Origin: Candidatus Cloacimonadota bacterium
GTDB taxonomy: Bacteria > Cloacimonadota > Cloacimonadia > Cloacimonadales > Cloacimonadaceae
NCBI GenBank assembly: GCA_029565535.1
Contig: JAKQNZ010000026.1
Span: 1-33,067 of the forward strand
DNA length: 33,067 bases
Direction: 5' to 3'
Shown here: positions 3,779 to 31,498 of the stretch, piece by piece
Numbering within the stretch: position 1 is the stretch's first letter
How the letters are laid out: each line of letters starts with the position of its first letter
Notes under the pieces: model-generated
What the model saw: only the letters and a program-made list of their open reading frames with translations
Databases searched by the model: none
Told to the model about the DNA's origin: nothing
Program-made: the position numbers and the translations under genes

Positions 3779-3838
3779 GCCCATCCTGTACCCATCCTTT
3801 ACTCATCCTATAAACATAGGGTATGATATGGATGGGTA
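3779..3838. repeat. 11-bp tandem repeat with inverted arm, copy 1
   Basis: Three 11-mers of the type ACCCATCCTTT lie end to end (3779-3789, 3790-3800, 3801-3811). They are followed by 'aaacatagg', and then by GGATGGGTA (3830-3838), the exact reverse complement of TACCCATCC at 3789-3797. A second copy of the same design lies at 19602-19672, so this is a dispersed family. It lies in a gene-free gap (3709-4212). Confidence 0.75.
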
Positions 3839-4011
3839 TGGGGTTAGAGAGCTGGTGGGCTGGGTTCAGGTGGAAAGGTGCAAAGGTGGAAGGGTGAAAC
3901 CCAGGCAACGTCAGGAGTCATTTTCGTCATATCTATCTCTATGTTTAGCAATACCTTTAGCGACGAAAAGGACTCATGCCTTGCCCTGCTACCCACCTTG
4001 TGATGAAGTTC

Positions 4012-4123
4012 TGGAGTCCTGGGGTCTTGGAGTCTTGGTGTGATGGAGTGATGGGGTGCTGGAGTGTTTGAGTGCTGGAGTGATGGAGTGCTGGGGTCTT
4101 GGAGTGATGGAGTGATGGAGTTC
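4012..4123. repeat. Array of fourteen 8-bp units (TGGAGTGN)
   Basis: Fourteen consecutive 8-mers in unbroken register from 4012 to 4123 fit the pattern T(G/T)G(A/G/T)GT(G/C/T)N; the commonest forms are TGGAGTGA and TGGAGTGC. The units have diverged but the 8-bp spacing is never lost. The array lies between two related secreted-protein genes. Apparent reading frames across it, on both strands, are by-products of the repeat. Confidence 0.9.
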
Positions 4124-4140
4124 TCAGTGACAGAGCCGTT

Positions 4141-19447: not shown

Positions 19448-19892
19448 ATTTGCCGACGCCGTTTCAAGCCCATAGAAATGCTTGTCTTACCCAGCTTTTT
19501 AAAGCGAGTTGCTAAGAGCGATATTCCGGTAAAGCTCCACCAGTTTTTTTAAGCTCATTGTTCCAAGACCCTAAAGAGTTGATTTTGCTTCGCTTCTGGC
19601 ATCCCATCCAATACCCATCCTTTACCCATCCTTTACCCATCCTATGAATATATGGTAAGTATAGAATGGGAAATGATTTGGATTGCTTTGGTTTTCTCTG
19701 GCAAGATGTCCTTTGAGAGGGGATTTTCGCAGTATCTCAATATCGATAGCGACTTGCCGTTGATAATCAGTCCAGGGAATTCCAAAGGGCTTGTCGATTC
19801 CCTAAACATAATTGCCAGAAGGGATTTGAGGCGATTTATCGAGCCTTGGAAATCTGCCTGCAAGCAAAAAACAGGCCAATGAGAAGTATTTC
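19448..19892. other. Gene-poor gap with one dispersed repeat
   Basis: This 445-base stretch between the exported protein and the lptB promoter holds the 11-mer repeat at 19602-19672 and no convincing gene. A 76-codon frame (19652-19882) starts inside the repeat, has no ribosome site and matches nothing known to me. No clear terminator for the upstream gene is visible. Confidence 0.6.
19602..19672. repeat. 11-bp tandem repeat, copy 2
   Basis: Four 11-mers (19602-19612, 19613-19623, 19624-19634, 19635-19645), two of them identical (ACCCATCCTTT), are followed by 'gaatatatgg'. A partial inverted arm ATGGGA (19667-19672) faces TCCCAT at 19602. The order of units and the AT-rich tail match the copy at 3779-3838, 15.8 kb away. 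Confidence 0.75.
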
Positions 19893-22133: not shown

Positions 22134-23543
22134 ATGCAACACACGCAAGTGATTATCATCGGAGGGGGACCCGGCGGCTACGAAACTGCCATCCGTCTCA
22201 GCCAGTATAATATAGAATGTCTGGTAATCGAAAAAGCCCGGCTGGGAGGGGTATGTCTGAACTGGGGCTGCATCCCTACCAAGGCCCTGGTAAAAAGCGC
22301 AGAACTCTACAGCGAAATGCTGGATGCCCCGGCTTGGGGATTGCCAGCAAATCATCAGGCATTGGACTATGCAAAAGTATATGAACGCAAGAATGCCGTG
22401 GTGGAACAGCTCGTAAGCGGGATAGAATATCTCTTCCGCAAACGCAAGATCCCCATGGTACAAGGCACTGCCATCTCCGTCCATAAAGAGGCCGATAACT
22501 ATATTGTAGAAACTGAAGCAGGCGAAAGCTTTAGCTGCTGCTACCTGATTCTGGCAACCGGCAGCGAAGCGAAAAGCCTGCCTGGAATAGAAATAGACGA
22601 AGTGGACATCCTTTCCTCCACCGGGATTCTGAAGTTGGATAAACTGCCAGAAAGCCTGGCAGTGGTTGGTGGAGGTGTTATCGGCTGTGAATTTGCCTCG
22701 ATCTTTGCTACTTTTGGAGTAAAGGTAAGCATTATCGAGTTTCTCCCGCGGCTAGTGGCTTTGGAAGATGAGGAAATCTCCAAACGCCTGGCTCTGAGCT
22801 TTAAAAAAGGTGGTATCAGCGTAAAGACCGGCGTGGGCGTGCAAAGCATCTCCAAAGGTTCTGATTCCTTGGAGCTAAGCCTTTCCGACGGTAGCTCTCT
22901 GACGGCTGAGAAAGTGCTGATGAGCGTTGGCAGAATTCCCGTTAACAATCTGCGCTGGATTGATCTGGAGCTAAAAACTGAGCGGGGAGCAATCCAAATA
23001 GACGATGCCATGCAAACCAGTCTGGATCGGGTTTTCGCCATAGGCGACGTGACTGCCAGGCTGCAATTGGCACATACTGCCAGCAAGCAGGGATTGATCG
23101 TGGCTGAGATCATCAGGAATGCCCTTACTCCAGCCCTCCAGCCCTCCAGCCCTCCAGCAGCCCTGAACTACATCAATATTCCACGTTGCACCTTCACCCA
23201 TCCCGAAATTGCTTCGGTTGGGTATACCCAGGCTGAAGCAGAGAAAGTATTTCCAGAAATCAGGATAGGTAAGTTTCCCTTTACGGCAAACGGCAAGGCC
23301 ATGGCCATGGGCAATACAGCCGGATTTGTAAAAACCATCGCTCGCGCCGATACCAATGAGTTGGTGGGTATGCATATCATGGGACCCAATGCCGCGGAGC
23401 TGATCGCCCAAGGGGCTATTCTGATCGCTAATCATAACACGTCTGAAGACGCAGAAGCCGTTGTTTTTGCTCATCCGACTCTTTCGGAAGCTATTATGGA
23501 AGCAATGGAAGACCTGCGCAACCTGTCTATTCACAAGATTTAA
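22134..23543 (+). CDS. lpdA: Dihydrolipoyl dehydrogenase
   Basis: A 469-residue flavoprotein disulfide reductase that reoxidises dihydrolipoamide of 2-oxoacid dehydrogenase or glycine-cleavage complexes with NAD. FAD-binding 'IIIGGGPGGYETAIRLSQ', redox disulfide in 'GGVCLNWGCIPTK', NAD-binding 'VVGGGVIGCEFASIF', FAD site 'VFAIGDVT', and the dimer-interface His-Pro in 'AHPTLSEAIMEAM' are all present. It begins on the base after the rpoN stop. No E1/E2 or glycine-cleavage gene is nearby, so its complex is elsewhere. Odd feature: the linker between the central and dimerisation domains (about residues 332-345) is coded by an 8-bp tandem repeat giving 'ALQPSSPPAALN'. Confidence 0.94.
   Translation: MQHTQVIIIGGGPGGYETAIRLSQYNIECLVIEKARLGGVCLNWGCIPTKALVKSAELYSEMLDAPAWGLPANHQALDYAKVYERKNAVVEQLVSGIEYLFRKRKIPMVQGTAISVHKEADNYIVETEAGESFSCCYLILATGSEAKSLPGIEIDEVDILSSTGILKLDKLPESLAVVGGGVIGCEFASIFATFGVKVSIIEFLPRLVALEDEEISKRLALSFKKGGISVKTGVGVQSISKGSDSLELSLSDGSSLTAEKVLMSVGRIPVNNLRWIDLELKTERGAIQIDDAMQTSLDRVFAIGDVTARLQLAHTASKQGLIVAEIIRNALTPALQPSSPPAALNYINIPRCTFTHPEIASVGYTQAEAEKVFPEIRIGKFPFTANGKAMAMGNTAGFVKTIARADTNELVGMHIMGPNAAELIAQGAILIANHNTSEDAEAVVFAHPTLSEAIMEAMEDLRNLSIHKI
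23130..23157. repeat. 8-bp tandem repeat inside lpdA (CCAGCCCT x3.5)
   Basis: Three exact copies of CCAGCCCT and a half copy. On the other strand the unit is TGGAGGGC, one base from the TGGAGTGC unit of the array at 4012-4123. Eight is not a multiple of three, so any change by one unit would shift the lpdA frame. Confidence 0.92.
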
Positions 23544-30987: not shown

Positions 30988-31076
30988 GAGTCCCGTCAGG
31001 GACGGTAGTTAAGATGAGCATAAGTCTCAGTCTGATAGTGAATAGCGCATCTAGAATGCCGCCCCTGACGGGACTC
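30988..31076. repeat. 18-bp inverted repeat GAGTCCCGTCAGGGACGG
   Basis: Left arm 30988-31005 and right arm 31059-31076 are complementary at 17 of 18 positions, 53 bases apart. Each arm also holds its own small dyad (GTCCC..GGGAC). This resembles a REP/BIME pair; the family could not be named from here. Confidence 0.8.
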
Positions 31077-31240
31077 AAAACACGATACTCCATTTCACAG
31101 GTGTAGTACTCGCACCAGCTCTGTAGCGAGTGGTACCAAATATACAACAGTCTTAAAGTATAATAGTTAAGTTATAGTTAAGTATAAAAGTTAAGGTTTT
31201 CTTTGGTTGTTCTTCCCTGCTTAAAGGTGTCTATTAAGTC

Positions 31241-31295: not shown

Positions 31296-31356
31296 GATGT
31301 GATTAAGGTGTTCAAGCAAGAGAGGAAAGGGTTGAAAAGTCGTGGAGTTGGAAGGC

Positions 31357-31388
31357 CACCCTCTTGGAGAGTCACCCTCTTGAGAGGT
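31357..31388. repeat. Tandem pair of 16-bp units (CACCCTCTTGRGAG..)
   Basis: Units 31357-31372 and 31373-31388 abut and share CACCCTCTTG and a GAG-rich end. They lie between inverted AAAGGGTT (31326-31333) and AACCCTTT (31389-31396). Confidence 0.65.
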
Positions 31389-31498
31389 AACCCTTTAAAG
31401 TATACAGGGTCTTTGATTATATGATGTGCTTTTCTGACTGAATCCCTGCAAGGATTGTATCGAGTATTAGTATCAAACAAAGGATGAGACTCAGGCAA

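Follow-up and report, generated by a model that had tools for sequence, protein, structure and literature searches.

Apparent repeated capture of an intergenic octamer repeat as a tolerated protein linker in Cloacimonadota

Cyanobacterial genomes contain STRRs, short tandem arrays that lie mostly between genes, occur genome-wide and vary in unit number. Intergenic heptamer repeats have been described with the unit GGGAATC in Xanthomonas, with related G-rich units in Nostoc and with the unit TAACTGA in Beggiatoaceae (PMC4692102, PMC4679880), and the GGGAATC-type repeats were reported to be under-represented in coding regions (PMC4692102). The account in PMC4679880 relays an earlier expectation that the units most likely to occur in coding regions are those of a length divisible by three, together with the proposal that an insertion may be tolerated between the subunits of modular proteins. 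The Rickettsia palindromic elements (RPEs), as described in PMC10969869, are dispersed repeats situated in frame in unrelated housekeeping genes, where the extra peptide is tolerated. Among the octanucleotide tracts of H. influenzae treated in PMC2651432, one had between 1 and 6 units depending on the strain.

The DNA analysed here (the window, 33,067 nucleotides) belongs to a metagenome-assembled genome (MAG) of Cloacimonadota of 2.6 Mb, a draft of 234 contigs, designated G000 below. The gene lpdA at 22134-23543 of the forward strand, identified by its ORF, translation and Pfam domains, encodes a dihydrolipoyl dehydrogenase of 469 aa, which passes the model TIGR01350 with 489.6 bits against the curated cut-off of 408.8. 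It is the one close lpdA copy in the genome, the remaining matches showing at most 36% identity, and its product is 65-74% identical to LpdA of seven other members of the genus. Within it, Tandem Repeats Finder reported at 23128-23158 a run of period 8 with 3.9 copies of the sense unit CTCCAGCC and 100% matches, written as TGGAGGGC on the reverse strand, which encodes residues 332-342 of LpdA (TPALQPSSPPA). The array placed at 23130-23157 by the first-pass annotation is the same one read in the phase CCAGCCCT, as three copies followed by CCAG; its remark that the lpdA unit is one base away from the intergenic unit is borne out by the comparison of TGGAGGGC with TGGAGTGC, and the reading frame stays open across the array.

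The unit of the lpdA array falls into TGGRGTNN, a family of dispersed octamers that is mostly intergenic in this genus of Cloacimonadota. The pattern TGGRGNNNTGGRGNNNTGGRG (TGGRGNNN three times), allowing at most one mismatch, has 15 matches in the window, where 100 dinucleotide shuffles gave 0.03 on average; 13 of the 15 fall in an intergenic array at 4004-4127 of the forward strand, composed of mixed TGGAGTGA, TGGAGTGC and TGGGGTCT units, and the other two in lpdA. Period 8 with the core TGGRG in at least three consecutive units was found in the lpdA array, in two exact matches at 23128-23156. Throughout G000, the exact triple pattern TGGAGNNN matched 33 times, 14 of them forward and 19 reverse, while no match was obtained for its reversed control, so that membership of the lpdA array in a genome-wide family, as had been supposed, is upheld, and the octamer clearly does occur elsewhere. 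From the arrays of at least three units that were read, 25 in all (13 from G000 and 12 from G006) with 176 units, a consensus of TGGRGT followed by two variable bases was derived. Position 6 is T in 161 of these units and G in 12, including the three full lpdA units, and TGGAGGGC was seen three times among the 25 arrays, always in lpdA.

This triple pattern, the looser of two, was detected in five of the 49 genomes of the family (G000, 33 matches; G006, 22; G012, 10; G011, 6; G001, 2) and a stricter one in four of the 124 genomes of the phylum, which rules out a phylum-wide repeat; the TGGRGTNN form was found in G004 as well. Matches to the reversed control (13 in G001, 3 in G003, 3 in G004, 23 in G007, and one each in G033 and G043) are explained for G001, G003, G004 and G007 by the presence of a related octamer, GAGGTNNN, mostly as GAGGTCNN and in G004 as GAGGTGAT; a search for GAGGTNNN in G000 and G006 returned no match. 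On viral contigs, 24 stretches match the octamer, and the GC content of the measured loci, 0.57-0.64, is the basis for no conclusion. Literature searches on the octamer in Cloacimonadota and on frame-independent repeat linkers found nothing.

Several other repeats were observed. Two octamer arrays of G000, L153 at 2042-2131 (4 units) and L160 at 1872-1961 (17 units, at a contig end), have a common 3' flank beginning ggtagtcggt, which suggests that they are copies of a single repeated stretch with different numbers of units. In the window, a period-8 run of a different sequence, AGGTGGAA (3868-3896; 3.6 copies, 85% matches), adjoins the intergenic array. A second dispersed element, at 3780-3836 and 19601-19670, consists of 11-bp tandem units CCCATCCTTTA and then CATCCTATAAACATAGGGTAAGTATAGGATGGG and ends in the inverse of its own start; its end motif had 32 genome matches with at most three mismatches against none for the control. 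An inverted repeat of GAGTCCCGTCAGGG, recognized by eye, and a period-16 run of TTGGAAAGCCACCCTC lie in a single intergenic stretch (30988-31078 and 31348-31394).

According to the Pfam assignments, the LpdA residues encoded by the array (332-342) fall between Pyr_redox_2 (5-320) and Pyr_redox_dim (349-457). In the AlphaFold2 model (mean pLDDT 90.3), a helix (residues 313-331) leads into coil (332-345), and a strand follows (351-353), with a mean pLDDT of 66 for the block 331-340; the length comparison and the model together delimit a variable interdomain region of about residues 322-349 (23097-23180, forward strand). With SKQG and the HP of THPE as end points, and duplicate rows dropped, the linker measures 38 residues in 27 of the 32 distinct Cloacimonadota rows, 40 in three (G001, G003 and G007), 41 in G000 and 45 in UBA6081, and 32 residues in 67 of the 68 rows from other phyla. 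These lengths mark the loop as tolerant and lineage-variable, but the array itself contributes little length. The idea of a tolerant interdomain linker is thus supported by domain positions, length variation among the orthologues and the low-pLDDT coil, while that of an added linker holds only in part: the region is longer by three residues than the usual one, but by only one than in the nearest clade, whose linkers of 40 residues are nearly as long with no octamer period. A net change of 1-3 aa rules out a simple large insertion in lpdA.

The same site is occupied in the related species UBA6081, whose LpdA (locus L031) is 73-74% identical to that of G000. There, a period-8 array of 5.6 copies was found on the same strand, with such units as TGGGGTTC and TGGGGTGC, in which position 6 is mostly T, and in both genomes alike the CCAG cores lie 36, 28, 20 and 12 nt before a conserved Asn codon. 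When lag-8 identity was compared with codon shuffles (33 rows, L122 being listed twice), the floor of p = 0.0005 was reached among the 32 distinct lpdA linkers only by G000 (L111) and UBA6081 (L031), the lowest value in the other 30 being 0.02 (L114); the period is absent from the linkers of G001, G003 and G007 (L116, p = 0.76; L113, p = 0.40; L122, p = 0.90). The array had been taken for a possible recent expansion; because the UBA6081 array shares its site and register, the comparison of the two sequences suggests that it is old instead. However, the tree built from RpoN, HPF and LpdA stripped of its linker (35 rows) speaks in part against this history. It places UBA6081, G000, G001, G003 and G007 in one clade with support of 92, inside which G000 groups with the octamer-period-free G001, G003 and G007 (support 78) and not with UBA6081 as its sister; a six-member clade including G006 has support of 31. 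Given this placement, a single gain would imply loss or erosion of the array in G001, G003 and G007, and two separate gains at lpdA are a possible alternative.

The capture in lpdA is not unique, for the octamer also encodes linkers or inserts in an alanine racemase, a threonine synthase and a DsbD-like protein. In the alanine racemase of G000 (C211), an array lies between the Ala_racemase_N and Ala_racemase_C domains, and the aligned region measures 89 aa against 58, 58, 58 and 57 in the four relatives that gave a match among seven others searched; the insert is partly non-octamer, and its coding units include TGGAGGGT, which is also present in intergenic arrays of G000. In the threonine synthase of G006 (C351; 168.2 bits against the TIGR00260 cut-off of 167.1), the corresponding region has 94 aa against 39-46 in seven relatives. 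Hence the absence of large insertions, as seen in lpdA, does not extend to these two genes. Within L169 2241-3581, a non-octamer stretch of the threonine synthase insert encodes WIPACAGMT, and its DNA resembles, by eye, an imperfect palindrome, which gives the impression that two kinds of repeat came in at the same time.

In the DsbD-like protein, a name that reflects a reading of the sequence rather than a family search, array-derived linkers were found in G004, G005 and G006. The gene is present in 46 of the 49 genomes; 30 loci were fetched, three were left out (no anchor, Ns or too short), and three of the 27 tested gave p = 0.0005, the next lowest value being 0.0115 (L244). The gene of G000 is cut by a contig end, and that of G002 (L258, G002:C15) has a run of N, or assembly gap, where G004, G005 and G006 carry the array. 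With ORFs below 100-150 aa left out of the count, coding arrays make up two of the 13 read from G000 and one of the 12 from G006 in a first array set; among the 20 stretches of a second set, the only coding ones are the dsbD linkers in G006 and in G004. A radical SAM ORF of G006 (L168), uncertain and not counted, has an array in its first part, which may precede the true start.

At all four gene loci with coding arrays, the C-rich strand is the sense strand, although four loci are few for an argument from orientation. Over the 25 arrays, 70 of 75 frames are open on the C-rich strand against 48 of 75 on the G-rich one, and in idealised uniform arrays a stop occurs in 12 of 96 and 18 of 96 frames, respectively; thus the C-rich strand is more often stop-free, which is not so for every possible unit. 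As the unit length of 8 cannot be divided by 3, each of the three units that were translated gives one and the same peptide cycle in all three frames, for instance PPALQPSS from TGGAGGGC or TPALQHSS from TGGAGTGC, the commonest unit.

In our view, the lpdA array is probably a member of the mostly intergenic TGGRGTNN family that was captured as coding sequence and is tolerated as a linker. Since the octamer with its C-rich strand as sense rarely gives a stop, and every frame cycles through the same peptide rich in Pro, Ser, Thr, Gln and Ala, a loop or an interdomain linker would likely tolerate an array in this orientation, whether the array originated there or came in from elsewhere, and selection would then need only to preserve the reading frame over its full length. 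The lpdA array would have taken the place of, or reshaped, a loop ahead of the dimerisation domain that already varied in length; an ancestor shared with UBA6081 probably carried it, and it would later have been homogenised to TGGAGGGC in the present genome.

Other explanations must be set beside this one. Replication slippage on the Pro- and Ala-rich codon run of lpdA could have produced the array locally, its likeness to the intergenic octamers being convergent, and the identity of the three full units, the restriction of their unit to this site among the arrays read and the net length change of only 1-3 aa would agree with such an origin. It is nevertheless quite unlikely, as the UBA6081 array at the same site is built of the canonical family units TGGGGTTC and TGGGGTGC, family units including TGGAGGGT are coding in the alanine racemase of the same genome, and the core TGGAG is common to the lpdA array and the other genome matches. 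The array was also proposed as a contingency-like locus, in which slippage of the 8-bp unit would switch LpdA on and off by frameshift. The arithmetic of this proposal is sound: in computed products, the removal of one unit leaves 364 aa and of two 338 aa, the addition of one gives 346 aa and of two 372 aa, and three units either way keep the frame. Moreover, array length alone would permit slippage, since tracts of at least three octanucleotide units are counted in the H. influenzae work as potential phase-variation tracts (PMC2651432). However, these products of 338-372 aa lose all or most of the dimerisation domain, and a switching function is very improbable because lpdA is a central metabolic enzyme gene, with its one close copy in G000, and both array-bearing species keep four cores and an open frame.

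An artefact of assembly or binning might be suspected in a 234-contig draft of a metagenome-assembled genome, in which some arrays lie at contig ends (L160), but it is hardly credible for lpdA, where the frame is open across the array, rpoN and hpf adjoin the gene in relatives too, and the separate record of UBA6081 has an array at the same place. A bolder extension of the capture reading, which we regard as doubtful, is that active generation or spread of octamer arrays in the genus keeps supplying new protein linkers, with lineage-specific dialects (TGGRGTNN in G000 and G006, GAGGTCNN in G001, G003 and G007); a C-rich insertion would then supply the same probably disordered, Pro-rich segment in any frame, to diverge afterwards under selection.

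With the preferred reading, capture of a mostly intergenic repeat as a tolerated linker, the octamer family offers a concrete and comparable case of mostly noncoding repeat DNA turned into coding sequence. Four unrelated genes, in five genomes (G000, UBA6081, G004, G005 and G006) of one genus or its close relatives, contain linkers or inserts that it encodes. A unit whose length three does not divide would normally be expected to stay out of genes; the peptide of one strand, mostly without stops and the same in every frame, would be a simple reason for its tolerance that also predicts the strand seen.

Compared with the described systems, the octamer resembles the contingency loci of H. influenzae in being built of short tandem units that could shift the frame when their number changes (PMC2651432), but lpdA is a central metabolic gene, and its array is short and leaves the frame open in both array-bearing species. 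With the leuA VNTR of M. tuberculosis it has in common a tandem repeat in a metabolic enzyme gene; the leuA unit of 57 bp is a multiple of three and can change in copy number without a frameshift, in contrast to the unit of 8 bp (PMC2704214). The heptamer repeats are alike in forming short, mostly intergenic tandem arrays, genome-wide and with variable unit number (PMC4692102, PMC4679880), whereas the octamer has 8 bp, variable positions 7-8 and coding arrays inside enzymes. The RPEs share with it the in-frame capture of dispersed repeats as tolerated peptide (PMC10969869), but they are palindromic elements of about 150 bp, and the lpdA array, 31 bp of direct 8-bp tandem units without a palindrome and with one peptide in three frames, is not one of them. 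By analogy, then, the family may be described as a simple tandem array that in structure is nearest to the intergenic heptamer repeats, appears to work like the RPEs, and belongs to neither.
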